Virus record (IMG/VR): IMGVR_UViG_3300009104_000136
Location: 1 to 21,661 of that record
DNA length: 21,661 nucleotides
Direction: 5' to 3' (one strand)
Source: a virus
The notes below the pieces were generated by a model that saw only the letters and a list, made by a program, of their open reading frames with translations, ran no database searches and was not told where the DNA came from. Below are positions 1-21,661 of the stretch, piece by piece. How positions within the stretch are numbered: the first letter of the stretch is position 1; every line of letters starts with the position of its first letter. The position numbers and the translations under genes are program-made.

Positions 1-3000
1 ATTCCTGTTTCCATTTCTATTTCATATTTTTTTCTAAGTTCTTCTGGTGTAAAGAATCCACCTCTTCTATTATAACTTGGTAGATTATAAATTTTATCTT
101 TATATTCTACGCCTATAGTTTTAGCAGTTACAGGATTACCTTGCTTATCTTGTAGAACTAAACCTAATCTAATTGTATCTAAATGATACTGTTGATTAAA
201 GGTTAAAGGAGTAGTACCTTCTGCATATTTTTTTCTACCACCTATTAAACCACCACCATACTTCTTAGTCCTAGGGGTTATATCAACATCTAAACCGGCA
301 ATAACATGGAAAGGTTGACCAAGATTCTGACTTAGTTTACGAGACATCTTAGCTAAATCTTCTGGAGTAGGTGTTGGTAGTCTTTTAATATCCTTAAGAC
401 CACGCCAACTAATAGGAGCATATTCTATTGGAATGTAATATTTTACTAGTTCTTCAATTAAATCATCAATATCCCCCACGTGTGGGTCGAGATACTTAAT
501 ATTATCCTCATAAGGTAAGCGATATAACATATCTATCTGAGCTTGAAAAGCTTGTTTAATTCTATCATTCCATTCTAATATTCCATTATGACCCCACTCC
601 ATTCTAGTAGCTGTAAGATCAGCTAATAATTCTGTATCAGAACGAGTATCATTATTTCTAAAACGATAAGCTTTTACCATATCAGATGCCATAAACTTAT
701 TAGCATTAATATTATTTTCATTTACATAAGAAAATAAATCATGGAATGCAAGCACTTCAGGAAACTTTTCTTTAACATTATCCTCTTTCTCAAAAGCTTG
801 TCTAACAGCTTTCACACGATTTTGATAGTGTGTTACGTAATCAAGAGCTTTATTATAAATAGCATCACTATAAGCTTCTTGTACTTTATTTATATTAACA
901 GGATTAAGCATTGGATTATCTGCAACTACTTTTAAATGTTTAGCACGTTTTATAGCTAAAGCAATATTTTCTACCTGACCCTGTGCTTCTTTTAATAATA
1001 TACTATTAGCTGTACCAAAATCAAATGATTTAGCTAACTCAGAATTTTCTAACATCCCTATTCTTTCTTCTAATTTAAATAATCTCGCTGTTTCTAATAA
1101 ATCTCTTTGAGGACCTTCAACAATTGTAGCGTGTTCTTTATGAATCTTTTCTATTTCATCAACAGCTCTTAAAAAAGAACGCTTAGATATTTCACTTTTT
1201 AATCCACTCTGTTTTATAATTTCTCTAAATCCTTTAGAAACTATACCACCTGTCATAAATTTCTTTCTAGTTAAAGGGTTATTAACTAACTGTGGTTCAT
1301 TAGTACTAACAGCAAATTGAGTAGGATCAAATATAATATAAGCGTACCCTCTTTTCTTTCCAACTATACTTCCTACTTTAGTAAGTGCTAAACGAGGAGC
1401 ATGTTGTATTTTATATTGAATACCATCAAAACCCATCATTTCTAATAGCTTTATAATATTACGGCTTTGTAAATTTCTAGATAAGGTATATAAGGCAGTT
1501 TCTGAACCTTCCGGTAAATCTTTATTCTTAGGATTTTTTATAAATGCATCGATTATATCATCATAAACTTGATTCTCAGCCACCGCCTGTTTTAATAGAG
1601 AACGAATTTCTTTATCGCTTACTTTAGCCTGTGTAAGTAAAGATTTACTAACTGTTTCATCGTTAATAAATGCATCTAATACTTCTTGTGGACCCCAAGG
1701 ATATAAATCTTTTTCTAACTTTAAAGGGTTTATCATTCTTATATAACCATCAAGTCGAGTAGTTTGTGGTACATCTAAACCATTTACTTGTAAATAATTT
1801 TGTAATGATTCAAATGATACACCAATTTCTTTATGTACTAAATCTTCTGTAGAACGTCCAAGTCTTGCATTAATATTTTCTAATCTTTCAAAATTTCCTT
1901 TAGCTTCATCTCGTAATATCTTTCTTAATCTTTCAAAATTACTAATAATTCTACGTGCTGGAAGTAATGATTCTTCCATCCCTTCTTTAATATCCCGATC
2001 CATCTTTAAAGCTTTTAATTCAGCTTCAACTTCCATCATTGGTCCGGATGTTCTAAGGTCTTCTTCAGTAACTATTTTCATGCCCGGACCCATCTCTACA
2101 GCTTCTCCTTCTATTCCTGTTACTGCAGATGCTGGAAATTCTTCACTTCCTAAATCAGTATCCTGACGATAATCATACGGTTTATATTCTTCAGCCAAGT
2201 CTTCAATCTTAGCAACCTGTCCTTCCGGTGCTGATGTCTCTCTAGGAAATAATCCTAGATCAGCTTTAACTTCTTCAGTTATTTCTATTTCATTTTCATG
2301 TCGCTTAATAAAATTAGTTAATCCTTGCTGATCATCTATATCAAAATATTTTTCTATCTGTTGATTATATCTATCAGGTTTAAATACTACTCTAAATCCT
2401 ACAGGTTTACTAGTTATAGCTGGACCTTTATCAATCTCTGCATGATATTTAGGATCAAGTAAATATTTAGTGTTCTTAGTTTTTAAATCACTGTAAGCTG
2501 TAACATAACCACTTTTTTGTTTTACTATTCCCTTTACTCCTCCAATTTCTACATAATTTTTAGGTATGTTACTTCCCTGTTTTAAAGGTATGAATACTTC
2601 ACTAATAGAATTTTTTACATTAACTATACTATCATTAAAACCTAACCATCTATTATAATCTTTATCTTCTTTCCGCATTAATTCTCGCAATGCAACTTCG
2701 TCTAATTCAGGATTATCCTTACGTAATTTTTTATAGTTAGCTCTAATCTTAGGTAGAATTTTACTTCTTCTTGTTTCTAAATTTTCTAAAAATTTATTTA
2801 AGCGTTTAACTTTAGCTTCAGGATTGATTAACTCTTCCATATCAATAATAGCTTTCTGAATTCCCTTTGCAGTAGGCATGCCTGTAATAAACTCAGGTTT
2901 AGTCTGTCCTTTCTTAATTACCTGCCCAGTAAAATATGGACTTTCAGAATCATAACGATCAATCATTCTTGCTCTGAAAAGTAACTCACTAGAGTTGACA

Positions 3001-6000
3001 AAATTATTATCATTAATAGCAGTTTGTTGTTTATAAATTTCACGAATTTTAGCTAGAGCTTGATCATAATCAACCTTATGCTTACGCATATAATTTTGTA
3101 TAATGCTTTCAAAAAACTCTGGATTCTGTAGAGCATACTTATCATTAGTAAAATCTTTCCAATTTTGTAATGAAGGAAAAGCTCTTGCATTACTATCATT
3201 TAACCACATACCCTCTGCAAATATTCTATCTCCTGTATGTATCCCTATATTAGTAGAACGATCTAAAGCATCACTAACTGAATGCTGTAAATCACTTCTA
3301 CTAATATATGATACAGGGTGTTTCACTACTGATGAATTTAAAAAACTTTGAGTATCTTCAGTACCCAATAATTTCATAGTACTACGTGGTTGAATAATAT
3401 CAGTAGATAATTTATTACCAATTAATCTATCTAAATCAGGGTCTTTATCTATACTATTTATTAATAAATCTAAATCAGTTTCCTTTTTAAATAAAGATTG
3501 AATAATAGGTTTAACTAATCTACCAAAAGCAAAGCGTTGTCTATCGTCTGTATCTTGAACTATAAAGCCTGCAACATCACTAAAAGATACACCGCCTGCT
3601 CCGGGTATTTTTCTATCTTCTGGTTCTGTTTTAGCATTTCTAATATCTACTTCACCACCTCTTTTAAACCTACCACGAGCCTGTTCTTCTGAAATAATAA
3701 CATCAGGAAATATAGGGTCCTCTGCTTCTTTCTTAGTTCCTCTTGCCCATCTTCTTAAATCAGTTCTAGTATCAACTGGTAAGGCAGAATATCCGGGCAT
3801 ATTAGTTACAGCTAATTCTGGTATTCCCTTTCTATATTGAATTGTATCTACAACATCTTGCATTAATGGTCCAGTAGGTGTTTTTAGAAATATAGCTAAA
3901 CCACCACCACCAACTTGTGCATTCTCATAACCTCTTAATGCAAAATCCAGTGGACCTAATCCGCCCCAACGCTGTACAGCTTTCATAGTTACCCACGCTT
4001 CCTTACTTACAAACTCTGGTCTATTAGGATCACCTTCTTCCTCATAATCATAGGGATTACGTAAGTAGTTAGTTAATCCGGCAACCCCTGTCATGATTGT
4101 ACCTACAGCAGCCAGTTTAGGTAAATTCTGACTTGGATTTTTAGTAAGCTGATATATGCCCTCTCTTAAAATTGTATTATTAAAAGCTGTCGGATAACCT
4201 AAGAATTGAAATAACATTTGTCCTGCTGGATGAGAAAATATCATAGGCTTATTAGCTGAAACGGCTGACGGATTTAAAATAATTCCTCTTGAAAATCTTG
4301 CAGCTCCTCTACTAAAATAATTTTCAAAAAAAGTATCTAGTTGTTCTACTCCACTTTCTCGTTTAAAAACTTGTGGTGAACCTCTTTCTATCCAAGCTAA
4401 TCCTTCTTGAATAGGTATACCTAAATCGTGTAATTCTTCTGTTATCCTATTTTGTAAACGATCAAGTTTAATCTCAGGAATATCATCGTACTTAGTTTTT
4501 AATCCATTCTTTATTTTATATAAAGTTTGTAAATTATCTTTTATAATCGTTTTACCTATAGTATAAGCTCCGCCTTCAACCGAATGTGTCCAAGGAGATA
4601 GAATATTAGCATTAAAAAATCCTCTTTGTAGTTTCTGAGCCAGCTTACTTTGCATTCTTTCACCGCCAGATAAACCTTGTATTCTTTCAAATACATTCAT
4701 CTCATGAGCTAAACCAACACCATGTCTTTCTTGATACCATAATCTTTCTAAAGGACTATCAGGAATTAATAGGCGTTTACCCTGTTCTTCACTTAAACCT
4801 AGACGTTCTAAAAAAGCAGTTCTACCAGCATTATATGATTTACGACCTATATCATTAATACCATAACCTATAGCTTCTCCCATATCCTTCATCCCTTTAC
4901 CCCATTGATTAAAAGGAATCCTAGCAAAAGGAATAAAAGCTTCTGTAACACTTGATACAGTAGCTAAAGGTAAGTGAGCTGTTTGTTGACTTAAACGTAA
5001 CCAATCAGATGTACCTTGCATAACTCTAGAGCCTGTCCAAGTTTCCATAGTTGGCATGTCTATACCTAATACATAATCATATAATTGCATTAAAGCTTGT
5101 TCATCGGCAGCCTTTAAAGGAAAATCTTGATCGTCTAATTCTTGTTTTATCTTGGGTAAAATTTGATTTTTGAAAAATTCTTTATTACCTCTTAAAGTAG
5201 GATGTTTAGTTCTAGCCATTGAATGAGCTAGATTATTAGAATAATTAAGTAATACTTCAGTTATATCTTCTTCTAAGAAAGGAGCTTTTCTATCGTATGG
5301 TATTTTATTAAATACTCTAGGATTTAAATTACCAACACCTTTTTTAGTTCTTTCAATACCATCATCAAAAAACATTTGATCTTTGGTCAACATATTATCT
5401 ACAATATGTCTAGCTTTATCTCGTTCAGTAGCAAAGGGAGCAGTAATATCAAAATCATCTATAGTTTTAGCATCAAAAATTTCTTGTAATTCTCTTTGAG
5501 CTTCATTATAACTTAAATTTCTTTTAGCTTGCTGAACTCTCCCTGTAGATATATCAATAACTTCTTCAGTAGCATTTCTCATATATCTTTCTACTTGAAC
5601 TGGTGTAGGAGAAATATCTGCATAACCAAACTCTATTAAGTTATCTTCAAATTCAGTCCTATTATCTTTTAGATAGCGTTTATTATACATATGCGGAAAA
5701 TAATTTTCTCGCCAACTAGTCCTTTTTGCAATACCTGCATTTATAGCATCCTTAAAATGATTATTTAAAGCTTGACGAATTGCCGTAGCTCCTAGTAAAT
5801 CTTCTCCTGTTAGTTCAGGAGCATTTGGTCCTCCTTCTAACCACAATCTAATTCTATCATTACGTGCTTTAGACCAACCAACTTGCTTCATTCCGTCTAT
5901 AGGAAACTGCATTTCAGCTACATATTTACTTCTTTGTTGATGTAAAGTTTCATGGAAAGCAAAAGGTCTATATCGTCCTGCTAAACTTTCATACTTACTC

Positions 6001-7262
6001 CATTTAGTTAAAGGTTTATCCCAATCTTCTCTAACATCATCTAAAAATTTAAACATAGTTTCTGAACGTAAACCATATTCTCTTATCTGTGTAGTGGGCT
6101 TTCCTTGAGTATGAGCCATTAACCAATCACCATAATTAGCTGTAAATTTAGGAGATACTCTTTCAAATATACGACCAAATAAATTTTTATTAATTACTTG
6201 TTCTTCAAAATCTGCATCTTCAACACCTTCCATAGATATTCTAACTGGTGTATCAAACAAATCTAAATTTCTACCTTCAAGTTTTAAATCAGAATCTATA
6301 CCTTCCCATTCAGACTTCCTTCTAATTCGTTCTAATTCTGAAACTTCTAAATTATTAGATGATCTTATAATTCTATCTTCATCTGAAAATCTATCAATAA
6401 CACTTCTAGTTTGATTACTACGTGTAAAGAAGCGGGATATACCATATCCTATACCACCACCTAATAGACCTGTAAAGCCCCCAACTAAAGCTGTTTGTCC
6501 TAAATCAAAACCAGAATTTTGTAACCCTACATTAATATCTATATTTTGGAGAGCTGCGTCATGTCCTGTTCCCCAAACAAAACCTATACCAGCTTCTACT
6601 TTACCGATTCGCATAGCTTGTTGATGAGTAGTTAATTTTTTTAATCCTTCAGTTGCTGCTTTACCTGCTGCAAACCTAGCTCCAATACTACCACCACCTG
6701 TAACAAAACCAGCTAAGATAGCTAACATCATTGTAGGATCACTAACAAAATCTCCCCCTATATCAGCTATCGCTCTTACATAGTGTTCCATACCAGAACC
6801 TTTAAGGCTTGCTTTATCAAAGCGTTGACTTAAATATTCATAATCTTTTTTCTGACGATCTGACCAGTTTTTAGAAGCTAAAGCTATACTTAAAGCACTA
6901 TCTCCTCCGGGAAAACTAGTTAATGAATAATCGCTATCCCTTAAATATTCAAACATATCTTCAGGATCAATATCAGTTTCACCGATTGATTCTAAGAATC
7001 TCTCAGCAATTCGTACATATTCGGGATCGTTTTCTAAATCTAGGAGGGTTTCATTGATAGGAGATAAAGAACTAAAAGTTCTGGTAGGTTTTATAGCTGT
7101 GATATCGTAGCCAAGATTTAACTTAGTATCATCAGTATCGGGGATAGGGGCTAGTAAAGCTTCACCTAAATGGGTAGGAATAAGTCCAGTATTCTCTTCT
7201 TCCTCTTCTTGTTTAGGAGGAGAAGTTAATAGATCATATAAATCTACAGTATTAATTGACAT
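1..7262 (-). CDS. Giant internal virion protein candidate, at least 2420 aa (3' end outside window)
   Basis: I read the frame codon by codon from the ATG at 7262-7260 to the left edge and found no stop, so 2420 codons are present and the C-terminus is missing. Residues about 20-25 are an acidic run. Gly-rich hydrophobic segments lie near residues 165-190 and 255-275. A segment with the motif ENYFPHMYN is near residue 520, and another hydrophobic stretch (LAAVGTIMTGVAGLTNYL) is near 1045-1070, followed by GGLGPLDFALRGYENAQVGG. Residues about 1800-1990 resemble the ADP-ribosyltransferase-like domain of phage polyvalent proteins (separate entry). The gene starts 12 bases after the 622-aa gene, with a weak AAGAG ribosome site, the poorest in the last block. 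Last position in a structural operon, great length and Gly-rich hydrophobic segments suggest a T7 gp16-like DNA-ejection protein. I see no lytic transglycosylase motif. A polyvalent or antirestriction protein carried in the virion is the main alternative. Confidence 0.75.
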   Translation of the reverse strand, partial: MSINTVDLYDLLTSPPKQEEEEENTGLIPTHLGEALLAPIPDTDDTKLNLGYDITAIKPTRTFSSLSPINETLLDLENDPEYVRIAERFLESIGETDIDPEDMFEYLRDSDYSLTSFPGGDSALSIALASKNWSDRQKKDYEYLSQRFDKASLKGSGMEHYVRAIADIGGDFVSDPTMMLAILAGFVTGGGSIGARFAAGKAATEGLKKLTTHQQAMRIGKVEAGIGFVWGTGHDAALQNIDINVGLQNSGFDLGQTALVGGFTGLLGGGIGYGISRFFTRSNQTRSVIDRFSDEDRIIRSSNNLEVSELERIRRKSEWEGIDSDLKLEGRNLDLFDTPVRISMEGVEDADFEEQVINKNLFGRIFERVSPKFTANYGDWLMAHTQGKPTTQIREYGLRSETMFKFLDDVREDWDKPLTKWSKYESLAGRYRPFAFHETLHQQRSKYVAEMQFPIDGMKQVGWSKARNDRIRLWLEGGPNAPELTGEDLLGATAIRQALNNHFKDAINAGIAKRTSWRENYFPHMYNKRYLKDNRTEFEDNLIEFGYADISPTPVQVERYMRNATEEVIDISTGRVQQAKRNLSYNEAQRELQEIFDAKTIDDFDITAPFATERDKARHIVDNMLTKDQMFFDDGIERTKKGVGNLNPRVFNKIPYDRKAPFLEEDITEVLLNYSNNLAHSMARTKHPTLRGNKEFFKNQILPKIKQELDDQDFPLKAADEQALMQLYDYVLGIDMPTMETWTGSRVMQGTSDWLRLSQQTAHLPLATVSSVTEAFIPFARIPFNQWGKGMKDMGEAIGYGINDIGRKSYNAGRTAFLERLGLSEEQGKRLLIPDSPLERLWYQERHGVGLAHEMNVFERIQGLSGGERMQSKLAQKLQRGFFNANILSPWTHSVEGGAYTIGKTIIKDNLQTLYKIKNGLKTKYDDIPEIKLDRLQNRITEELHDLGIPIQEGLAWIERGSPQVFKRESGVEQLDTFFENYFSRGAARFSRGIILNPSAVSANKPMIFSHPAGQMLFQFLGYPTAFNNTILREGIYQLTKNPSQNLPKLAAVGTIMTGVAGLTNYLRNPYDYEEEGDPNRPEFVSKEAWVTMKAVQRWGGLGPLDFALRGYENAQVGGGGLAIFLKTPTGPLMQDVVDTIQYRKGIPELAVTNMPGYSALPVDTRTDLRRWARGTKKEAEDPIFPDVIISEEQARGRFKRGGEVDIRNAKTEPEDRKIPGAGGVSFSDVAGFIVQDTDDRQRFAFGRLVKPIIQSLFKKETDLDLLINSIDKDPDLDRLIGNKLSTDIIQPRSTMKLLGTEDTQSFLNSSVVKHPVSYISRSDLQHSVSDALDRSTNIGIHTGDRIFAEGMWLNDSNARAFPSLQNWKDFTNDKYALQNPEFFESIIQNYMRKHKVDYDQALAKIREIYKQQTAINDNNFVNSSELLFRARMIDRYDSESPYFTGQVIKKGQTKPEFITGMPTAKGIQKAIIDMEELINPEAKVKRLNKFLENLETRRSKILPKIRANYKKLRKDNPELDEVALRELMRKEDKDYNRWLGFNDSIVNVKNSISEVFIPLKQGSNIPKNYVEIGGVKGIVKQKSGYVTAYSDLKTKNTKYLLDPKYHAEIDKGPAITSKPVGFRVVFKPDRYNQQIEKYFDIDDQQGLTNFIKRHENEIEITEEVKADLGLFPRETSAPEGQVAKIEDLAEEYKPYDYRQDTDLGSEEFPASAVTGIEGEAVEMGPGMKIVTEEDLRTSGPMMEVEAELKALKMDRDIKEGMEESLLPARRIISNFERLRKILRDEAKGNFERLENINARLGRSTEDLVHKEIGVSFESLQNYLQVNGLDVPQTTRLDGYIRMINPLKLEKDLYPWGPQEVLDAFINDETVSKSLLTQAKVSDKEIRSLLKQAVAENQVYDDIIDAFIKNPKNKDLPEGSETALYTLSRNLQSRNIIKLLEMMGFDGIQYKIQHAPRLALTKVGSIVGKKRGYAYIIFDPTQFAVSTNEPQLVNNPLTRKKFMTGGIVSKGFREIIKQSGLKSEISKRSFLRAVDEIEKIHKEHATIVEGPQRDLLETARLFKLEERIGMLENSELAKSFDFGTANSILLKEAQGQVENIALAIKRAKHLKVVADNPMLNPVNINKVQEAYSDAIYNKALDYVTHYQNRVKAVRQAFEKEDNVKEKFPEVLAFHDLFSYVNENNINANKFMASDMVKAYRFRNNDTRSDTELLADLTATRMEWGHNGILEWNDRIKQAFQAQIDMLYRLPYEDNIKYLDPHVGDIDDLIEELVKYYIPIEYAPISWRGLKDIKRLPTPTPEDLAKMSRKLSQNLGQPFHVIAGLDVDITPRTKKYGGGLIGGRKKYAEGTTPLTFNQQYHLDTIRLGLVLQDKQGNPVTAKTIGVEYKDKIYNLPSYNRRGGFFTPEELRKKYEIEMETG
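1290..1860 (-). other. ADP-ribosyltransferase-like segment inside the giant protein
   Basis: Within the giant frame, residues about 1800-1990 contain, in order, HKEIGVSFESL, GYIRMINPLKLEKDLYPWG, MMGFDGIQYK and GYAYIIFDPTQF. From memory of the family, the ADP-ribosyltransferase domains of phage polyvalent proteins have the order [G-x-H-F near the start] - [KNPL-type strand followed by D-L-x-W] - [GYDG-I-x-Y] - [Y-I-V-F-D-P-x-Q]. The last three elements match well. The first matches poorly, since an S stands where H is usual. I infer an ART-like fold. Catalytic activity cannot be judged from this, and the domain may be a degenerate structural module. It is followed by KKFMTGGIVSKG, a Gly-Gly turn motif. 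Confidence 0.5.
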
Positions 7263-7274
7263 AAGTAGCTCTTG

Positions 7275-9143
7275 TTAAGAATCTAAAAATTCTTTAATTT
7301 CTTGTTTAGATAAATCTGGGTCTAATCCTAAAAGAGTTAATGCTTCTTTTATTTGTTTAGGTCTATACTTAACACCTTTAGTATAGTTTATTAATCTCTT
7401 ACGAGCATTTACTTGAGGAGCTTCTTCAACTGCTCTTAAAAATGGTTTTACAAGTATTTCCTCTCCACCTACTCCAGTATGAGCTGTTCTGGGTTTATCT
7501 CTATAACCTAATGAGCTTAATTCCTCATCAATATTTGGCGGTGGAGGAGGGGGTGGAGGTGGTGGAGGTGGAGGTGGGGGTGGAGGTGAACCAGTATCTC
7601 CTCCAATATCTTCTTTAGTATCTCCTTTTTCTTTTAGTTGAGGATTAATATAAGTTAAAAAAGACTGTTGTAATTCTTCTATTGTCTGCTCTGACATATT
7701 TCTAACTCTTGCCATCTTAGGTAATGTAAGTGTAACATACGTTTTTGCCATTTCTATTTTATCTTTTAAAGGTGCTGATTTAAATATATCTGTTGCGTTA
7801 AACATAATAGTATTTTTATCTGTTCCTCTACTAATTTCAAAAGGTGGTAATATTAATCTATTAGCTGCATTTGTATTCCAAGAATAATTTTTTAAACGTG
7901 TTCGTCCTATCATTCCATAAGTTTCCTGTATAGGATGTTCAGTTACAAAATGTTTTAATCCAAAAGCTGCTATCTCAGTTATACCTTCATTACGATTACC
8001 TTTAAATAATGAAAGATTAAAACGGTTAGTTTCTTCTCTAAGTTCTGCTGTAGTTGGTATATAATCACCAGCATGTTTACTTCTTAAGCTAAGACTAGCA
8101 AAAGTCCTCGATAAAGATTCACCAAATTCCGGATTCTCTTCCGCAATATTACGTAAATTAACTGACCATTTTGCCCATTCCTTGCCCATAAAAGTAGGAA
8201 TACCGTTTTCTATTAGTCCTGATTTTGCCCACGCTGTATCTAAAGTTTCTAGTAATTCCTCTGATATCTTAAATTGTGTAGGATTACGAGAAATTTGATC
8301 TATTATATTGATAACCCAAGGTCCAGCTTCCTCATCAGAAATTGTAGAAGAAGGACTTTTTATTAGAGCTATAGAAATTTTATTTAAATTTTCTTGTGTA
8401 GGAACAAAAGGTAAATCAGGTTGTATAGTATCCATTAAAGTTTTAAACTTAGGTAACTTATCTAGAGTTATATCATCTAATAATCTAAGTGAATTGTCTG
8501 TTTGACCCTCTCCTTTTCTCCAATTATTTATTCGTTTAACTCCTGCTTTCATTGAATTTAATAATTTACCTTGATCTTTAATACTATTTTTTGCCTGTTC
8601 AAGAGGTTCTTTATATAATTTCATAAGTCTTGGTAAATCCATATTATAGAGTTTATCCATCGTTAAACCTTCATCTAAATCCTGTAAAACTTCTAAAGAA
8701 GTTCCAACACTAGTAGTTAAGTACTTATTAAAATCATCTAGTATACTTTCGGCATATGCTCTTTGAAAAAGTGGTGACTTTCCTTCACCCAATATACCGC
8801 TTTGTATTAAACTATTTATTTTACTTTCTCTAGAGCCTGCTCCATCAACAATATTTTGTAGTGTTTTAGTATCTGTTAGTTTATTAAAAAGAGCCTGTGC
8901 CTTTGCTTCTGCAGACGCATTCCATGAATCTATTTCTTTAGTACGTTCTGTTGCTAAGTTTCTAGGAATACTAACTGCATTCATAAGAATACCATCCTTA
9001 CCTAACCAAGCGTTCCAGTCTTGTTCTTCTTTCCAATTTTTAAGACTGTCTTTCTCTCTCTTTTTTTGTCCTTGCCGAAGCAAGCTGAACATCTCACTCA
9101 TGTCCATGTTCATATTTACATTATCCCAAGGATTCTCTGCCAT
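7275..9143 (-). CDS. Virion protein with 17-residue poly-proline tract
   Basis: A 622-residue protein of unknown family, largely predicted helical and soluble, with no signal peptide or membrane segment that I can see. The N-terminus is rich in Met, Asp and Asn (NMNMDMSEMFSLL) and is followed by charged helices. Residues 520-536 are 17 consecutive prolines, preceded by a Gly/Asp/Ser-rich linker. An 86-residue C-terminal tail ends in a short helical region (SKQEIKEFLDS). The ATG overlaps the stop of the 208-aa gene as TAATG, with AAGGAG eight bases upstream, so translation is probably coupled. The place between a small conserved protein and the giant protein, and the length, recall T7 gp15 next to gp16, but I see no sequence motif that proves this. 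The poly-proline run would stall ribosomes without EF-P and probably acts as a stiff spacer between two domains. Confidence 0.8.
   Translation of the reverse strand: MAENPWDNVNMNMDMSEMFSLLRQGQKKREKDSLKNWKEEQDWNAWLGKDGILMNAVSIPRNLATERTKEIDSWNASAEAKAQALFNKLTDTKTLQNIVDGAGSRESKINSLIQSGILGEGKSPLFQRAYAESILDDFNKYLTTSVGTSLEVLQDLDEGLTMDKLYNMDLPRLMKLYKEPLEQAKNSIKDQGKLLNSMKAGVKRINNWRKGEGQTDNSLRLLDDITLDKLPKFKTLMDTIQPDLPFVPTQENLNKISIALIKSPSSTISDEEAGPWVINIIDQISRNPTQFKISEELLETLDTAWAKSGLIENGIPTFMGKEWAKWSVNLRNIAEENPEFGESLSRTFASLSLRSKHAGDYIPTTAELREETNRFNLSLFKGNRNEGITEIAAFGLKHFVTEHPIQETYGMIGRTRLKNYSWNTNAANRLILPPFEISRGTDKNTIMFNATDIFKSAPLKDKIEMAKTYVTLTLPKMARVRNMSEQTIEELQQSFLTYINPQLKEKGDTKEDIGGDTGSPPPPPPPPPPPPPPPPPNIDEELSSLGYRDKPRTAHTGVGGEEILVKPFLRAVEEAPQVNARKRLINYTKGVKYRPKQIKEALTLLGLDPDLSKQEIKEFLDS
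7536..7586 (-). repeat. Proline-codon tract (17 codons)
   Basis: Seventeen consecutive CCN codons on the minus strand, in all four forms CCA, CCT, CCC and CCG. The tract encodes residues 520-536 of the 622-aa protein. The + strand is correspondingly G-rich (GGAGGAGGGGGTGGAGG) and could form G-quadruplexes. Confidence 0.95.
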
Positions 9144-13856: not shown

Positions 13857-14510
13857 TTAGTTCTCCTTAACTAATTCTTCTGTCTTTTCTATTTTAAAAC
13901 CTTTAAACCATGCTGGTAAGCCTAGAAAGGGTCTTGTATCAAACTTATTTTCTTCTGCTTCCTCTCCATTTACATCATTATAATGTAAAAATACTTGACC
14001 ACAGTTCTCTCCTTCAAAAGGTTCTCGCCAATGTTCTAATTCACAACCACGATACATAACCATATCTCCAGCTTCCATTAAAATAGATGTTCCTTTTTTT
14101 CCTGTATCACCAGTTGAATCTAAAAATAATTCCCAAGGATCACCTCCTAAGTTTAAAGTACCTGATATTTCACAACTATACCGATCTTTATGTCTTTTTA
14201 AAATATCTCCTTTTTTATAGATACGAGCATAACTATAAGTAGGATAAAGTTTAAAACCACTTTCTGCTTCCATTCGTGGTAATAGTTTTTCTAATAATGT
14301 CTCCATTACTATATCACTATAATGGCTATATGTTTCTGGAATTTGTGAATCATTCCACACGCCCCAATCTTCATTAAACTGAGAAATATATAGACTATCA
14401 TAAAACATTCTTGCTACTTTTCGTTTAGTTAAAAAATAATCATAACAAAAGTTAGCCATTTCTTCTGATATAGCTCTTTTAACTATTAAATACTTATCGT
14501 CTTTAAACAT
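13857..14510 (-). CDS. 2-oxoglutarate/Fe(II)-dependent oxygenase (second copy), 217 aa
   Basis: The 217-residue protein carries the facial triad of the superfamily: H107-x-D109 in LKRHKDRYS and a distal H160 in CELEHWREPF, spaced as expected for a double-stranded beta-helix core. YARIYKKGDIL before the triad and GQVFLHYND after it fit the strands of the core. Members use 2-oxoglutarate and O2 to hydroxylate or demethylate a substrate. The substrate here is unknown. It overlaps the end of the first oxygenase gene by eight bases, with AGGA about eight bases upstream. The two proteins differ strongly in sequence, so they are not a recent duplication. Related genes are common in tail-fibre regions of cyanophages, where their substrate is also not established. 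Confidence 0.85.
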   Translation of the reverse strand: MFKDDKYLIVKRAISEEMANFCYDYFLTKRKVARMFYDSLYISQFNEDWGVWNDSQIPETYSHYSDIVMETLLEKLLPRMEAESGFKLYPTYSYARIYKKGDILKRHKDRYSCEISGTLNLGGDPWELFLDSTGDTGKKGTSILMEAGDMVMYRGCELEHWREPFEGENCGQVFLHYNDVNGEEAEENKFDTRPFLGLPAWFKGFKIEKTEELVKEN

Positions 14511-15133: not shown

Positions 15134-16138
15134 TTATCGCCATTCCCCAATTACTTTTTTATGAAATACTTGTTTATAATCCCAAACTCCACTAGCGTTA
15201 ACATTCGGTTCACTAACAATAACTATACCTGATCCACCTGCAGCACCAGTTCCGTCATTATCGGCTGGGTGTTCAGGAGTGGCTTGATCAGCACAAACTC
15301 CACCACCTCCACCACCTGTGTTAGCAACACCAGTTCCTAAAGTTGGTGATGGTGAGCCTTGGTGGTTTGCATCCCCAGCTCCACCTTTTTGAGCAGGGAA
15401 AATACTTCCTCCACCTGTAGTATGACCTCCTAAATATCCTTTATTAATTTTTCCTTCGGTTGAAGCAAGTTCGTGTGTAAATCTATAACCAGCTCCACCA
15501 CCACCAGAATACCAAGTTTTTGAGCCAGAAACAGTAGACATCTTAGCTAATCCACCTTGACCACCTATAGCGTTCCAATCGTTACCAAGTCCATCTGGAG
15601 TTTCATTACCACCAGTACCACCGGCTCCACCGCCTCCACCACCAGAGTAATAACTACTACCATTGTATCTTCCATGACCTCCATCATTTCCTTCAGGTGG
15701 ATCAAAACTACCTGAATTACCTGTTCCACCACCGGGATGTGCTGGGTGATTACCACCTGAACCACCACCGGAACCTCCATTAAGTGCTTCGCTATCTCCT
15801 CCAACAGCTAGACCACCAGCCCCACCACCACCAGATGATGTAATAGGAGTAGCAGAACCAAAAACTGAATCAGAACCAGAAGAACCTCTATTATTTGAAT
15901 CTGGAGCCCCTGCTCCACCTGCTCCAACAGTTACTGGAACAGGAGAAGTTGGAATTGGGTGAGCCGGAAGTTCTCTAAATCCACCTCCACCCCCACCACC
16001 ATGACTAGAACCACCACCACCAGCAATTACTAATAAATGACATTCGCTTGACATAGGATCGGCTGCAAAAGTTCCATTAGCAGTAAAGGTCGTTATCTTA
16101 GGTGTAATTGTAAAGTTTTTTCCTACTAGTCTAGCCAT
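15134..16138 (-). CDS. Glycine-rich tail adhesin-like protein B, about 334 aa
   Basis: The protein begins MARLVGKNFTITPKITTFTA and contains a strand-rich segment ending LLVIAGGGGSS, then about 230 residues of Gly-rich motifs (GGGGGGGF, GAGGAGAP, GGGGGAGGTGG). It closes with GGSGIVIVSEPNVN, GVWDYKQVFHKKVIGEWR and a stop. This plan, a VVAGGGG opening, a glycine-rich core and a IVIxEP...GVW end, is common in marine phage tail proteins. A start at 16147 is possible, but GGAG would then be one base from it. The ATG at 16138 forms TAATG with the upstream stop and has GGAG ten bases away, so I chose it. It is paralogous to the adjacent upstream glycine-rich protein. A receptor-binding tip role is inferred. 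Confidence 0.8.
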   Translation of the reverse strand: MARLVGKNFTITPKITTFTANGTFAADPMSSECHLLVIAGGGGSSHGGGGGGGFRELPAHPIPTSPVPVTVGAGGAGAPDSNNRGSSGSDSVFGSATPITSSGGGGAGGLAVGGDSEALNGGSGGGSGGNHPAHPGGGTGNSGSFDPPEGNDGGHGRYNGSSYYSGGGGGGAGGTGGNETPDGLGNDWNAIGGQGGLAKMSTVSGSKTWYSGGGGAGYRFTHELASTEGKINKGYLGGHTTGGGSIFPAQKGGAGDANHQGSPSPTLGTGVANTGGGGGGVCADQATPEHPADNDGTGAAGGSGIVIVSEPNVNASGVWDYKQVFHKKVIGEWR

Positions 16139-17130
16139 TAGCCCCATTCTCCATTTATTTTATGACTAAATTGATCTTGTATATTCCATACACCACCTGC
16201 TGTCCATGTTCCTTTAGGCTCACTAATTACAACTACTCCAGAACCACCAGCACCTCCAGCTTGAGCTTGTGGAGCACCTGAAGGGGAAGCTTGAGTACCT
16301 CCACCACCTCCACCACCTCCGGTGTTAGCAGTAGCAGCAGAGCCAGTACCAGAGACAGAAGGTGATCCAGCAGAGCCACCAGCTCCACCACCACCAGCTC
16401 CACCAGCAGCGTCAGGAGCAGCATCTCTACCTCCTCCTCCTCCACCAGCATAAGTTACATCACTTCCTGAAATATCATAAACAGTTCCTTTACCACCACC
16501 AACAGGACCTTTTGAACTACCTGAATACCTACCAGCACCGGTAGAACCTCCCCCATTACCTGCTTGTTGACTAGGAGTACCAGAACCTTGACCACCCGGA
16601 CTTCCTTGTGGATCAGGAGAAGGAGTGGATTCTCCAAAATTCTCTCCACCGGGAGCATCAGCAGCACCTCCACCACCAGAACCTCCATCTTGACCATGAT
16701 TAGCACCACCACCAAAGTTGTCTCCACCACGACCACCACCTACAGCAGTATAAGTAGTGCCACTAGCAACTACTACAGTATCAGAACCATTAGCTCCACC
16801 ACGACCTTCGGCTGGATCAGGACCATGTACTCCTCCAGCTCCTCCACCAGCACCTATAGTGACAGGCACAGGAGAAGAAGGCATAGGTACAGCAGTTCCA
16901 GCAGGAGTTCGAGCTGTGCTTGAATTAAATAATACTCCTCCAGCACCTCCTCCACCACCACCAGCTTGTCCAGAGCTAGGACAGCCAGAACCACCAGCAC
17001 CTCCAGCTACTATTAAAATTTCAGCTTCAGGAGAATTAGCCACAAATGTACCTGAAGAATTAAAAGTAGTTATTTTAACCGCAGTAGTTGGGTCATTATC
17101 TGTTCCTATAAGTCCTCCATTAATAGCCAT
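16138..17130 (-). CDS. Glycine-rich tail adhesin-like protein A, 330 aa
   Basis: The protein begins MAINGGLIGTDNDPTTAVK, has ITTFNSSGTFVA and a strand leading into ILIVAGGAGGSG. Residues about 40-290 are dominated by glycine runs separated by short Ser, Pro, Ala and Asp segments. The end is GGSGVVVISEPKGTWTAGG, VWNIQDQFSHKINGEWG and a stop. The ribosome site AGGAGA lies four bases before the ATG and includes the G of the previous stop codon. Its ends match those of the next gene closely in pattern, while the core differs, so the two are tandem paralogs. Glycine-rich phage adhesins such as the tip of Salmonella phage S16 form packed polyglycine-II helices with loops that bind receptors. A similar role here is inference. 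Confidence 0.82.
   Translation of the reverse strand: MAINGGLIGTDNDPTTAVKITTFNSSGTFVANSPEAEILIVAGGAGGSGCPSSGQAGGGGGGAGGVLFNSSTARTPAGTAVPMPSSPVPVTIGAGGGAGGVHGPDPAEGRGGANGSDTVVVASGTTYTAVGGGRGGDNFGGGANHGQDGGSGGGGAADAPGGENFGESTPSPDPQGSPGGQGSGTPSQQAGNGGGSTGAGRYSGSSKGPVGGGKGTVYDISGSDVTYAGGGGGGRDAAPDAAGGAGGGGAGGSAGSPSVSGTGSAATANTGGGGGGGGTQASPSGAPQAQAGGAGGSGVVVISEPKGTWTAGGVWNIQDQFSHKINGEWG
16148..16152 (-). promoter_or_regulatory. Ribosome binding site deciding the start of glycine-rich protein B
   Basis: GGAGA on the minus strand. It is one base short of touching the first in-frame ATG (16147) but a workable ten bases (counted from GGAG) from the ATG at 16138, which overlaps the previous stop as TAATG. 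This favours the shorter, 334-residue product. Confidence 0.6.
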
Positions 17131-17138
17131 CTTTTCTC

Positions 17139-17591
17139 CTATAATTCAACCCATGTTAAATTAGATGTATTCCATCTATAATTAGTTTCATCCCCTTCTA
17201 CTGTAAAGGTGCTTCCTAGCCATCGTGAGTTATCCTCATCCCATGAAGTGTTTACAAACAATCCACCTTCTTCAAGATCATTAGGATAAGTAACAGGTGC
17301 TTCCCAATCACCACTACTATTTAAAGTCCAAGAAGCATAAGGTTTAGGAACTATAAACATATTTTTACTAGCATCATAACTACAGCCAATACCAGCGTAT
17401 TGTTTTCTAAAATTATGATTATAAGACGTTTGTTTCCAAGCAACTCCTCCTGAACTAGCAGGAACTAAAGCTTCTACAAAATCTTCTGCTCCAGTAGATA
17501 AGTCTCCACCATTAGCATCTACATCATCATTAGAGATTACTACAACTCTAAGAACAACATTATTATTATCTAATTCTGCAAAATGAGCCAT
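17139..17591 (-). CDS. Conserved marine-phage tail-region protein, 150 aa
   Basis: A 150-residue protein starting MAHFAELDNNNVVLRVVVIS. It contains AWKQTSYNHNFRKQYAGIG, followed by YDASKNMFIVPKPYASWTL, and ends YRWNTSNLTWVEL. The pattern MAHFAxLDxNNVV ... WxQTSYNxNFRKxYAGIGxxYD ... PxPxxSWxL is one I recall as widely conserved in cyanophages and other marine phages, where it sits beside tail-fibre genes and has no established function. The ribosome site AGGAGG is nine bases upstream. It has no membrane segment or signal peptide. A tail accessory or fibre-associated role is likely from position only. Confidence 0.85.
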   Translation of the reverse strand: MAHFAELDNNNVVLRVVVISNDDVDANGGDLSTGAEDFVEALVPASSGGVAWKQTSYNHNFRKQYAGIGCSYDASKNMFIVPKPYASWTLNSSGDWEAPVTYPNDLEEGGLFVNTSWDEDNSRWLGSTFTVEGDETNYRWNTSNLTWVEL

Positions 17592-17997: not shown

Positions 17998-20922
17998 TTA
18001 TCCGAAAACGATTGCCATCGCAATAGCTTTACCTGTTGAAATTCCACCACCAGCGTCTTCCCAACCTACTCCACTACCTGTTGAAGTTAGTACTTGTCCG
18101 TCAGAACCTTGAGCCCCTGCGATGGTTAAATTGGTTGTATCTAAAGTACCATCAACATCTAAAAGAGCACCGGGAGAATTAGTACCAATTCCTACTCTAT
18201 CAGTACCGGCTTCAACAAAAAGTAAATTAGCATCACTATTACCTTCAACTCTGAAGTCTACATCGTTTGATTCATCATTTAAAACTACTGCTTCTGGTAA
18301 TAAAGAAATTGTATTTCTTAATGTTCCTGCCAACATAGTTTTAATATACATAGAACCATCTTCTGTACCATCAGAAACATCTGAAGCATAATTATAAATA
18401 CTTCCATAAATTACATCTTGAGAGTTGTCGTTTCTTCCTTCAAAGTCAATCCAACCCAAAGCATCATCATCTGCTGGTGATCCAGAGTTTCTATATAATC
18501 TTAAATTTGGTCCTGCATTAGCATCTGCATCTGTTGATGTTAGTGTTAAATTGTCTGAGTTATCTGCTACTGTGATTGTTGCTCCAGCAGAAGAAGTTAT
18601 AGCTCCATCTACTTGTAATGTAGAAGCCATATCAACAGCACCATCAATATCTACGACATCTAGGTTTGCTGTACCATCAATATCAGCATCTCCTGATATA
18701 TCTAAAGACCCTGCGTCTAATTCACCACTTATAGTTAATAATCCACTTGACGGATTATAGGTAAATCCAGTATCTGTTTCAGCTCCTTGAGAACCTGTTG
18801 CACCATCTACGAATACAGGATATACAGTTTCATCAGTACTGTTATTAGCAGAAGCTGTAAAAGTTGCAGCGTTTCCTGTAGTATCTTGGTTAAGTGTACC
18901 AATTACAAAGTCTAATGTATTATCACCATCTTCGTAAGTTACAGTAATACCTGTCTCAGTATTAGAGCCAACCATAGCTCCTATAGTATCTGCAATATAT
19001 TCGTTTAATGCTGTACCATCTACTGTAATCGCATCAGCTTCTAATGTTCCGTCAATATCTGCGTTACCTGATACATCTAATGTAGTTAAATCTAACTCTC
19101 CTGCTATGGTAACATTACCATCTGCTAAAGTTATTAAGTCTGTATCAGAAGTATGTCCAATAGTTGTTCCATTAATAATAACATTATCAACTGTTAAAGT
19201 TGTTAGTGTACCTAATGAAGTTATATTAGATTGAGCAGCCCCTGTTACTGTAGCTGCTGTACCACTTGTATTTCCTGTAACATCACCAGTAAGATTACCA
19301 GTAAATGTAGCAGTAACACCTGTAGTGGTCAACATTCCTGTACTAGGATTGTATGTTAAACCTGTATCACTTTCAGCACCTTGCGATCCTGTAGCTCCGT
19401 CAACAAAGATTGGGTATACTGTTTCATCAGTACTATTGTTTGCAGATACTGTAATATTATCTGCTGTTCCTGTAGTATCTTGGTTTAATGTTCCGATAAC
19501 AAAGTCTAAAGTATTGTCTCCATCTTCGTAAGTAACTGTTATATTAGTTTCAGTATTTGAACTGACCATAGCACCGACTGTATCGGCTATGTATTCATTT
19601 AAAGCAGTTCCATCAACTGTGTATGCATCTGCTTCAAGTGTACCATCTATATCGGCATTACCTGAAATATCAAGTGATCCTGCATCTAACTCTCCTGAGA
19701 TTGTTAAAAGACCACTAGAAGGATTATATGTGAATCCTGTGTCGCTTTCTGCTCCTTGACTTCCAGTAGCACCATCTACAAAGATTGGATAAACTGTTTC
19801 GTCTGTGGAGTTATTAGCTGAAATTGTAATGTTATCAGCAGTACCTGTTGTGTCTTGATTAAGAGTACCTATTACGAAATCTAAAGTGTTATCTCCGTCT
19901 TCATAGGTAACTGTAATGTTTGTTTCTGTGTTAGAGCTAACCATAGCTCCAACTGTGTCAGCTATATATTCATTAAGAGCTGTTCCGTCTACAGTATAAG
20001 CATCGGCTTCAAGAGTTCCATCTATGTCTGCGTTACCACTAATATCTAATGTGGCTGCATCTAATTCACCTGATATAGTAATATTAGTACCACCTGTCAT
20101 AGCACCATCCATTGCGACAGCACCATTAATATCTATAGTAGTAGCAGTAAGTTCAATCTCAGTATCAGATACTAAGTCTAGTACACCATCAGCAGATTGA
20201 TAAATATAAGTACCTGAATCACCGAATTGTAATTGGTCGGTACTTGAAAGAAGTAAGCCTGTATCGGCTACGTGAGTTAAGGAAACGTCTTGATCATCTC
20301 CAAAGTTTATTACTGCACCATCAGCTAAGAAAAGATCACTAAATTCTAAAGAACTAGTACCTAGAGCAGCACCATCAGATGCATCAGGTACGAAAGCTGT
20401 AGTAGCTGTTATAGTTGTTCCTTGAATTGTACTAGAACCTGTGACAGCTCCTGTGACTGCTAGAGTACTTGATAATGTAGTAGCACCTGTAACTCCAAAA
20501 GTTCCTGCTACTGTACCATTTACATCTACGTCAAGTGTATCAATATGTGCAGTACCATCTATAAATAGGTCTTTAAATTCTAATGAGCTTGTACCTAAAT
20601 CTATATCGTTATCTGTTACTGGTGATATAACACCATCTGAAATTCTAATTTGTTCTACTGCTGCAGAAGATACCTCTACAAATACTCCCCACCTATTATT
20701 TGTACTGTCTGCAACTATCTTGTTTAAAAAGTCTAAATCACCTATCGTGTGAATATTTCCACCATGTCCTGCTGTTCCATCGTGTCTGTGTCCTGTCGAA
20801 CTAGCAGAACTCGATGAGTATGCAAAAGCGTTGACTAGTTGATTGTATTCATTATTAAACAAAGCTGCTGTGATAGTATCACCATCACTCATTGAACTTT
20901 GTCGTGTATAACTCTGTGCCAT
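17998..20922 (-). CDS. Repeat-containing tail fibre protein, 974 aa
   Basis: The N-terminal region (MAQSYTRQSSMSDGDTITA, then FNNEYNQLVNAFAY and TGHRHDGTAGHGG) is the usual opening of long marine phage fibres and probably attaches to the tail. Segments of the type DIDLGTSSLEFKDLFIDGT occur twice in the first 200 residues. Three near-full copies of a 125-residue module follow, then a partial fourth (separate entries). The C-terminal part has RNDNSQDVIYGSIYNYASD, VEAGTDRVGIGTNSPGALLD and a final GISTGKAIAMAIVFG, which I recognise from cyanophage fibres. The composition, rich in Asp, Gly, Thr, Ser and Ala with a repeating beta-strand pattern, suggests a trimeric beta fibre. No catalytic domain is visible. 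GGGAGA is eight bases upstream of the ATG. Confidence 0.88.
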   Translation of the reverse strand: MAQSYTRQSSMSDGDTITAALFNNEYNQLVNAFAYSSSSASSTGHRHDGTAGHGGNIHTIGDLDFLNKIVADSTNNRWGVFVEVSSAAVEQIRISDGVISPVTDNDIDLGTSSLEFKDLFIDGTAHIDTLDVDVNGTVAGTFGVTGATTLSSTLAVTGAVTGSSTIQGTTITATTAFVPDASDGAALGTSSLEFSDLFLADGAVINFGDDQDVSLTHVADTGLLLSSTDQLQFGDSGTYIYQSADGVLDLVSDTEIELTATTIDINGAVAMDGAMTGGTNITISGELDAATLDISGNADIDGTLEADAYTVDGTALNEYIADTVGAMVSSNTETNITVTYEDGDNTLDFVIGTLNQDTTGTADNITISANNSTDETVYPIFVDGATGSQGAESDTGFTYNPSSGLLTISGELDAGSLDISGNADIDGTLEADAYTVDGTALNEYIADTVGAMVSSNTETNITVTYEDGDNTLDFVIGTLNQDTTGTADNITVSANNSTDETVYPIFVDGATGSQGAESDTGLTYNPSTGMLTTTGVTATFTGNLTGDVTGNTSGTAATVTGAAQSNITSLGTLTTLTVDNVIINGTTIGHTSDTDLITLADGNVTIAGELDLTTLDVSGNADIDGTLEADAITVDGTALNEYIADTIGAMVGSNTETGITVTYEDGDNTLDFVIGTLNQDTTGNAATFTASANNSTDETVYPVFVDGATGSQGAETDTGFTYNPSSGLLTISGELDAGSLDISGDADIDGTANLDVVDIDGAVDMASTLQVDGAITSSAGATITVADNSDNLTLTSTDADANAGPNLRLYRNSGSPADDDALGWIDFEGRNDNSQDVIYGSIYNYASDVSDGTEDGSMYIKTMLAGTLRNTISLLPEAVVLNDESNDVDFRVEGNSDANLLFVEAGTDRVGIGTNSPGALLDVDGTLDTTNLTIAGAQGSDGQVLTSTGSGVGWEDAGGGISTGKAIAMAIVFG
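18733..19107 (-). repeat. Tail-fibre module copy 3 (125 aa, 375 bp)
   Basis: Starts IAGELDLTTLDVSGNADIDG. It is separated from copy 2 by a 73-residue insert containing TGNLTGDVTGNTSGTAATVT. It is more diverged in protein than copies 1 and 2 (for example ITVDGTALNEYIADTIGAMV). A 20-residue start of a fourth copy (ISGELDAGSLDISGDADIDG) follows at 18732-18673. Confidence 0.85.
19327..19701 (-). repeat. Tail-fibre module copy 2 (125 aa, 375 bp)
   Basis: The same module as copy 1 at protein level (ISGELDAGSLDISGNADIDG to GLTYNPSTGMLT), but more than half of the codons compared differ from copy 1, nearly all synonymously. Confidence 0.9.
19702..20076 (-). repeat. Tail-fibre module copy 1 (125 aa, 375 bp)
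   Basis: Encodes a module starting ISGELDAATLDISGNADIDG and ending SDTGFTYNPSSGLLT. It contains ALNEYIADTVGAMVSS and ANNSTDETVYPIFVDGATG. It is directly adjacent to copy 2 and differs from it at 6 of 125 residues by my alignment. Confidence 0.9.
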
Positions 20923-20924
20923 TT

Positions 20925-21661
20925 TTATTGTCTCCCTGAAGGTTCGTAATCTATGTATATGCCATTAACTGTATAAGGTGAATTTTGATTATCACTAAAC
21001 ACTCGAAAATAGTTACTATGCCCACTTCCTTCTACTACTTGTCTTGTTATAGGATCAGAAGCTGCTCCAAATTTATGTGCTGCTGTTGTACCAAAAACTG
21101 CTGTACCAAATAAAGAGGGTTTAGGTATTGATAATGAATAATCAGTTGGTTGTGGACTATCTAAATCATCAAAATCATATCTAATTCTTAAAGTTGTATC
21201 AACTGTTCCTTCTGGAGTAATTGATAGTTTTACATACTTTAAAGTCTTTAATGTTCCTAAATCTCCATAATCTAAATCTGGAGTTTGATACTTAGCTATT
21301 ATATTACTAGCAGTACTGCCAGAATCTAAAAAATTATCTCCTATATCATGATTAAATATTCTACCAGCATAATCTCCATGATAGTGCTTTTCAACTCCAC
21401 TTGAATTAAATCCTGAAGTTGCTGCAGCACTTGCATCTATTCCTACAGTTTCAGACCATTGAAATTGTGTAAAGCCTTGTTCGTTTGTTTTAAGAGTACC
21501 TATTATTCCTCTTGAAGAACCACCTGTAGAAGAAGTTCCATAGTATAAGCGATATTGAGATTTATCTCTAATAACAATACTGCTTATATTATAAGTTCCT
21601 ATGTTGTCGGCAATAAATTTAATTACAGGCTGTATAGATCGACTAACTGTTCCTAACTCAA
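20925..21661 (-). CDS. C-terminal part of a virion protein, tail nozzle/tubular-like candidate (5' end outside window)
   Basis: An open frame enters from the right edge and ends at the TAA at 20927-20925. It gives at least 244 residues with no in-frame stop. It is strand-rich and contains KFIADNIGTYNISSIVIRDK (read in order from the upstream side), LKTLKYVKLSITPEGTVDTT, LFGTAVFGTTAAHKFGAA and the end SPYTVNGIYIDYEPSGRQ. A C-terminus of the type YTVNGxYIDYxPxGR after an FGTAVFG segment is familiar to me from structural tail proteins of marine podoviruses. This could be a tail tubular or nozzle protein, but the N-terminal half is absent and the match is from memory. Its stop lies two bases before the fibre ATG, and its final codons supply the fibre's GGGAGA ribosome site. 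Confidence 0.6.
   Translation of the reverse strand, partial: ELGTVSRSIQPVIKFIADNIGTYNISSIVIRDKSQYRLYYGTSSTGGSSRGIIGTLKTNEQGFTQFQWSETVGIDASAAATSGFNSSGVEKHYHGDYAGRIFNHDIGDNFLDSGSTASNIIAKYQTPDLDYGDLGTLKTLKYVKLSITPEGTVDTTLRIRYDFDDLDSPQPTDYSLSIPKPSLFGTAVFGTTAAHKFGAASDPITRQVVEGSGHSNYFRVFSDNQNSPYTVNGIYIDYEPSGRQ

Follow-up and report, generated by a model that had tools for sequence, protein, structure and literature searches.

Described adhesin systems and the locus under study

Glycine-rich adhesive modules with a variable part have been reported from several groups of viruses. In the accessible portions of the respective reports, the glycine-rich domain of gp24, the simplified tail fibre of myocyanophage Pam3, is proposed to bind the receptor and combines a conserved stem with a variable tip (PMC9608196); gp38 of the T-even phages S16 and PP01 is described as a single receptor-binding protein located at the tip of the fibre, with glycine-rich stretches and with hypervariable segments that determine receptor specificity (PMC12892980); and in the adhesins of the haloarchaeal Hafunaviridae HF1 and HF2, variable segments are split by glycine-rich motifs, and the genes recombine (PMC9229481, PMC7230728). 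The genes listed for variable islands in marine viruses include those for tail fibres, for gp38-like adhesins (3) and for oxygenases of the Fe(II) type (8), according to excerpts of two further reports (PMC3909814, PMC7029224). Here we analyze the virus record IMGVR_UViG_3300009104_000136 (the whole stretch of 21,661 bases, hereafter the window; guanine-cytosine content 35.3%), whose minus strand carries two tandem glycine-rich genes, denoted A and B. We consider it probable that A and B represent two docking positions, each fitted with an exchangeable head that binds receptors. This reading draws on the paralogy of the two genes, their slot-specific tags, the replacement of the B core, the occurrence of cassette families in both slots, and the predicted fold, each documented below.

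Modular glycine-rich phage adhesins are already known; exchange between two tagged slots looks like a new form of them, and no account of cassette exchange between paired glycine-rich slots was found among the matches listed for the open-licence literature (titles and abstract openings). In the excerpts cited above, exchange of fibre or adhesin genes is described for Hafunaviridae, rather than cassettes moving between two slots of one genome, and the variability of metaviromic islands and of the pelagimyophage host recognition cluster concerns whole genes, domains or islands, rather than tag-bounded cassettes in paired slots. T-even gp38 resembles A and B in combining glycine-rich stretches with variable segments, the difference being that it is described there as a single protein.

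Paralogy and predicted folds of A and B

Gene A occupies the upstream slot (16138..17130, minus strand; 330 amino acids, 31% Gly; phrog_2295) and gene B the downstream slot (15134..16147, minus strand; 337 amino acids as listed, 28% Gly). The start of B is more likely the second Met (16138), yielding a protein of 334 amino acids, because the stop codon of A overlaps that ATG (..GGGGCTAATGGC..) and most relatives start there. Both proteins match PF21722 (Gly_rich_2) in hmmscan, with 65.7 bits for A and 49.6 bits for B against a curated cut-off of 24.3; a PF21722 search of the record itself returned A only. The opening is common to both (ITTFNSSGTF..ILIVAGG in A, ITTFTANGTF..LLVIAGG in B; alignment score 62 vs at most 15 in 1000 shuffles), as is the ending (SGVVVISEP..GVW..GEW in A, SGIVIVSEP..GVW..GEW in B; 81 vs at most 20 in 1000 shuffles). 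The cores are only weakly alike, with a non-Gly identity of 0.25, which still exceeds the shuffles (291 vs at most 189 in 100). A and B are thus confirmed as glycine-rich paralogues with matching ends and different cores, as proposed in the initial annotation, which had been made from the letters of the window alone. The shared opening that it reported is real, whereas the consensus IxIxAGG is not, given that A reads ILIVAGG and B LLVIAGG. A, B and the tail region produced no match to reference phages at the protein or DNA level with the low-complexity filter of BLAST on, so that this negative carries little weight.

In A, the N-terminal tag (N-tag) of the slot spans residues 1-19 (MAINGGLIGTDNDPTTAVK; 17074..17130, minus strand; NGG-type), followed by the head strands ITTFNSSGTF..ILIVAGG (residues 20-44; 16999..17073, minus strand), the glycine-rich core (residues 45-294; 16249..16998, minus strand) and, at the end of the protein, the C-terminal tag (C-tag; residues 312-330, GGVWNIQDQFSHKINGEWG; 16141..16197, minus strand), with a predicted short helix at 317-325. 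The corresponding tags of B are the N-tag (..MARLVGKNFTITPK; 16097..16147, minus strand) and the C-tag (SGVWDYKQVFHKKVIGEWR; 15137..15193, minus strand), with a predicted helix at 324-332.

AlphaFold2 models of the monomers were obtained for A (predicted local distance difference test score, pLDDT, 84.7; predicted template modelling score, pTM, 0.85) and B (pLDDT 73.3; pTM 0.76; residues 224-270 below 50). In both models, the N-terminus is a low-confidence tag (residues 1-7 of A below 50) and the C-tag forms a short C-terminal helix. The models match the Pam3 tail fibre (PDB 7YPX, 7YFW) with Z scores of 15.9 for A (205 residues aligned, root-mean-square deviation 3.3) and 14.4 for B (197 aligned, 3.0), at 26% identity, and the Bxb1 tail tip (PDB 9D93) with Z scores of 16.2 and 14.1, respectively. 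The Bxb1 domains, labelled 'brush' in the available part of the report (PMC13243795), belong to a siphovirus tail tip; the likeness is one of fold. The HF2 glycine-rich protein Q8V6M2 is also among the fold matches. The glycine-rich domains of ALK and LTK match more weakly (Z up to 7.5), and values near 7 may reflect a common arrangement only. S16 gp38 is not among the fold matches listed for A and B, which does not exclude kinship, and the profile of A matched no PDB sequence.

As in gp24, the predicted models place a glycine-rich bundle on a strand-built (TNF-like) base. Unlike gp24, whose N-terminal docking domain is helical, A and B carry short tags and a C-terminal helix and form a tandem pair; no helix precedes the first strand in either model, where helices of at least four residues are C-terminal only. 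A and B are therefore described as probably working like gp24, and not as its orthologues. The notion of a receptor-binding module gains support from this predicted resemblance to glycine-rich fibre heads proposed to bind receptors. Instead of binding receptors, A and B could serve the tail fibre as structural or chaperone-like accessories, consistent with a weak match of B to phrog_863, 'tail fiber assembly' (E 9e-6). Such a role, which we regard as unlikely, is at odds with the fold matches to the fibre head of Pam3 and the tail tip of Bxb1, with the combination of a conserved base and a variable core, and with exchange of the kind expected of host-recognition genes.

Slot tags among the relatives

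Scans of viral contigs loaded 138 records, several of which overlap as stretches of a single contig; L001, which duplicates part of the window, was excluded. The records yielded 124 complete glycine-rich open reading frames (ORFs) with both motifs, 93 of them unique; ORFs that were open at a contig end, lacked the motifs or had other endings (e.g., the TLT type) were left out. Removal of L081_623 left 92 unique proteins, which fell into 30 core clusters by single linkage cut at 0.58 identity, and the requirement of a typed N-tag and two spaced Trp residues left 90 (52 A, 38 B). Both slots are complete in 28 loci, 27 of them other than the window. In all counts, the slot type is that of the N-tag, which contains NGG in A and an RLIG-like motif in B; automatic typing by the C-tag called three B proteins (L018, L024, L080) 'A' because a late motif was picked.

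The constant markers of the slots are the terminal tags, about 18 residues at the N-terminus and about 19 at the C-terminus. The ends are thus conserved, as had been noted from the window, the slot-constant part being shorter than the shared motifs and limited to the extreme N-tag and C-tag. After removal of near-copies, among pairs in which both tags were at least 0.70 identical, the cores were less than 0.55 identical in 40 of the 97 pairs from the A slot and in 9 of the 40 from the B slot. For example, the B proteins of L137 and L005 have identical tags (1.00 and 1.00) and cores that are 0.39 identical, with DNA identity of 0.90-1.00 at the ends and 0.43-0.66 inside. Near-identical B tags surround three different cores in L005, L011 and L137 (DNA about 0.85-1.00 at the ends, mostly 0.4-0.7 inside). 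In the A slot, similarity of the N-tag is nearly uncoupled from that of the core (rho 0.12; N-tag vs C-tag, 0.45).

The pattern extends to cultured phages. The glycine-rich proteins of isolates HTVC103P and HTVC104P are 0.964 identical over residues 1-140, 0.718 over 141-395 and 0.935 over 396-441, so that kept ends around a variable core are not merely an assembly artefact. Together with the divergence described in the following section, this agrees with the proposal of a duplicated module whose core varies. In the same two isolates, the gene directly upstream of the glycine-rich gene (L138:14054-15133, L162:14014-15042) is a second variable locus, 42% identical, compared with 92-93% for four other genes.

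Replacement of the B core

The nearest relative found for the window is L004. On both sides of the gene pair, 100-nucleotide bins are mostly 0.97-1.00 identical between the two (0.92-0.93 in two bins and 0.68 at the end of P150). Within B, nucleotide identity is 1.000 in the N-tag and 0.963 in the head strands, drops to 0.751 in the core, and returns to 0.961 in the last strand and C-tag. Synonymous divergence (pS) follows the same course, reaching 0.40 in the core as against 0.09 in the last strand and C-tag and 0.00-0.09 across the ends; in the downstream genes for the 2-oxoglutarate (2OG)-Fe(II) oxygenase and the phrog_2954 protein it is 0.08 and 0.04. Across B and its downstream flank, the most divergent stretch is 15189..16027 (minus strand; approximately residues 40-319), with 20.1% mismatches inside and 1.4% outside and a likelihood ratio of 134.5, compared with at most 7.4 in 100 permutations. 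Because synonymous sites jump along with the core, it was imported rather than altered in place; judged from this comparison, the core of B is a replacement by recombination. The boundary lies after the ITTF..GTF strand, near residue 40, so that this strand stayed with the gene. Replacement in A is less clear, with identity of 0.963 in the N-tag and 0.876 in the core (pS 0.20).

Divergence after duplication, with fast evolution of the cores under selection and no exchange, would look the same in a single pairwise protein comparison of variable cores and agrees with the higher dN/dS of the cores (0.40-0.45 vs L004) relative to the downstream genes (0.09-0.10). The rise of synonymous divergence in the B core over that at its ends is not expected under this scenario, which is further contradicted by the presence of cassettes of one family in both slots and by the rejection of a single A clade (see below), and it appears very improbable. 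Variation of the cores by a diversity-generating retroelement or an invertase would likewise leave the ends fixed and the core variable. A and B share one orientation, synonymous sites change as well, and none of the 14 window proteins scanned matches a reverse transcriptase or recombinase in Pfam (the window is a genome fragment, and the scan did not extend to template or inverted repeats); we give this mechanism almost no credence.

The comparisons suggested in the initial annotation, of cores between close relatives and of recombination boundaries near the conserved ends, gave the anticipated outcome: cores differ within nearly identical flanks, boundaries are visible at the cassette edges, and exchange between phages is evident from the B core and from identical tags combined with different cores. 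The GGT/GGA repeats that it invoked as possible drivers of exchange did not hold up. In the 28 loci, 14-mers of A that recur in the same zone of the B gene of that genome show no enrichment in the core, with 1.2% there against 2.1% in the head strands; they amount to 1.2% in the post-core strand, 0.07% in the N-tag and 0 in the C-tag. Long common words in L014, L015, L018 and L080 come from overlapping reading frames and not from repeats. A route through glycine codons is not needed, the visible boundaries lying at cassette edges and not in glycine codons.

Cassettes of one family in both slots

Core identity between A and B proteins has a median of 0.42 and a maximum of 0.92, and reaches at least 0.58 in 46 of 1976 pairs. 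The clearest cross-slot case is the A protein of L045. Compared with the B cores of eight other proteins, its core reaches 0.84-0.92 identity, while in the tags it agrees with the A proteins of L128 and L130 at 0.71-0.89; the change of partner is visible at both sides in the DNA. Compared with the B gene of L119, DNA identity is mostly 0.85-1.00 inside (with dips to 0.73) and 0.39-0.56 outside. Here, the ITTF..GTF and SGVVI strands travelled with the core. One cassette family can thus occupy either slot among relatives.

With the tags removed, a tree of the 90 cassettes requires at least 10 slot changes (mean of 29.1 with shuffled labels), at least five of them forced by starred branches, and a single A clade is rejected on this tree (approximately unbiased test, p-AU 0.0004). 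The slot label is therefore clustered, and not strictly inherited with the cassette. The A cassette of the window and the L005 B cassette fall into one group of five with 100% support.

The swaps could also be chimeras, created when short-read assemblers misjoined the conserved ends of co-occurring strains, and the head motif does contain exact common stretches of about 20 nucleotides in some genomes. The L045-type A core, however, differs by 8-16% from each of the eight B-slot cores in its cluster, so that none of the eight could have supplied it, and contigs from other IMG/VR datasets show the same arrangement, L115 matching along the entire length and L126 across residues 1-75. Furthermore, this family also occupies the A slot of L005, L011 and L137, which come from three different datasets. 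The isolate pair HTVC103P and HTVC104P (0.96 / 0.72 / 0.94) backs kept ends with a variable core, although not cross-slot exchange. We consider chimerism an improbable explanation.

Several observations weigh against interchangeable heads in two slots. All cross-slot cases are metagenome contigs, as chimerism would predict, and the single isolate pair compared shows core divergence with kept ends only. The cassette tree comes from a quick search and has long branches, and its deep order is unsure. By identity, the relationship between the window A core and the L005 B core is weak (0.63; non-Gly 0.488), the maximum non-Gly identity among 1904 pairs of different core clusters being 0.490 and the 99th percentile 0.408. 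In none of the 28 loci do both slots carry the same family (1.71 expected, P 0.13), an avoidance that is not significant. In the B slot, N-tag similarity correlates with core similarity (rho 0.53; N-tag vs C-tag, 0.57), implying that B is less freely reassorted than A, and the 90 proteins include many near-copies, which makes the pair counts non-independent. In A, the post-core region and C-tag also diverge from L004 (0.917, pS 0.26), as does P150 (pS 0.21); hence, the tract exchanged around A extends beyond the core. Finally, the putative adhesin role of A and B is read from a predicted fold and a sequence pattern.

On balance, two positions with interchangeable heads account best for these data in a scheme of the following kind. 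A and B would occupy two tail-associated positions, each head being a cassette in which two terminal strands accompany a glycine-rich bundle that resembles the Pam3 fibre head. The short tags outside the cassette would identify the slot, possibly as docking sites to two places on the tail. Homologous recombination in the tags and flanking strands between co-infecting phages could then replace the cassette within or across slots. The core loops would bind the receptor, and new heads might change host recognition and host range.

If this scheme is correct, tag-bounded cassettes make it possible to distinguish the docking part from the host-recognition part in sequences, and provide interchangeable units for binding tests. 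They would also explain the sharp divergence of this locus between otherwise near-identical phages.

Genes adjacent to the pair

The minus-strand genes are transcribed in the order 974-amino-acid repetitive fibre-like gene, 120-amino-acid gene, P150, A, B, 2OG-Fe(II) oxygenase and phrog_2954 protein. P150 (phrog_7759; 17139..17591, minus strand), the upstream neighbour of A, is found in this position in 25 of 27 loci; in the other two (L014, L128), A lies at the contig edge. A P150 homologue was located within 202 nucleotides of a script-called glycine-rich ORF in 11 of 16 reference records of podo- and myoviruses (16 of 23 matched records were examined, and the 11 include two similar-looking Melnitz records). 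In the remaining five, the nearest glycine-rich ORF was 896, 1839 and 2813 nucleotides away in three, and none was present in the retrieved stretch of two. P150 may be an adaptor or chaperone for the glycine-rich heads. No Tfa-like chaperone adjoining A and B was recognized among the neighbours (2OG-type proteins and P150, which has no Pfam match and was judged by sequence alone). The C-terminal part of P150 (approximately 17200-17300) is variable too, with an identity of 0.68 to L004 in one 100-nucleotide bin.

Downstream of B lies a 2OG-Fe(II) oxygenase gene (PF13640; 14503..15126, minus strand; H118, D120 and H192 kept at 1.00); in all 27 loci, a homologue lies at most 2.5 kb downstream of B. 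In the window, the oxygenase gene is followed by the phrog_2954 gene (13857..14510, minus strand), whose product is labelled ferrochelatase. In 25 of 27 loci, a homologue of the latter is found further downstream; in L005 and L119, the contig ends earlier. The HxD...H motif marks 2OG-type enzymes. In an alignment with 98 homologues, the residues H107-x-D109...H160 and R162 of the phrog_2954 protein are conserved (all four at 1.00), and because the HxD...H residues are kept, it is likely a misnamed 2OG-Fe(II) oxygenase; no Pfam or NCBIfam match was found, and a PDB sequence search returned none. The scan with phrog_2954 as the query returned only nine close loci, so that the oxygenase linkage covers this lineage only. 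A broader scheme, in which a combinatorial adhesin system, its two slots marked by fixed docking tags, draws on a common open pool of cassettes (30 core clusters) and 2OG-type oxygenases hydroxylate or otherwise modify the Gly/Pro/Asn-rich heads, is conceivable, and we hold it to be unlikely; if true, oxygenase modification would add a second, enzymatic layer of receptor recognition.

Phage affiliation and other genes of the window

The protein encoded at 20925-21659 has matches in 24 records, including the Pelagibacter phages HTVC103P, HTVC104P, HTVC115P and HTVC033P and the Puniceispirillum phage HMO-2011; in HTVC103P, HTVC104P, HTVC033P and HMO-2011, its full length (100%) is aligned, at 28-41% identity. 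The neighbourhood in HTVC033P is similar, consisting of a fibre gene, a 120-amino-acid gene, a glycine-rich gene, P150, a second glycine-rich gene, two 2OG genes, a small gene and a 'ferrochelatase'. No copies of the DNA polymerase and capsid core genes were recognized in the window. The window is related to HMO-2011-type phages in its tail genes and has a gene order in common with HTVC033P, and the best reading is that the window derives from a marine podovirus akin to this group, presumably with a Pelagibacter-like host.

The glycine-rich genes gp64 and gp62 of HTVC033P (L139:11060-12856, L139:13390-15132) each contain two tandem glycine-rich cassettes, the first ending in a W-type tag and the second in a different ending. 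These cassettes were considered as a case of exchange and not counted, their best non-Gly identity being 0.445 (to the A protein of L032), between the 99th percentile (0.408) and the maximum (0.490) for pairs from different clusters.

The 974-amino-acid protein upstream of A and B (17998..20922, minus strand) is likely a tail fibre; its first and last residues resemble an HTVC033P gene labelled putative tail fiber protein. It contains a repeated module around NADIDGTLEAD..VDGTALNEYIAD..NTLDF. At the other end of the window, an ORF of 2420 amino acids (3-7262) runs off the record and has no Pfam match at E 0.001, and a protein of 622 amino acids (7275-9143) carries an unbroken run of about 17 prolines near its C-terminus.

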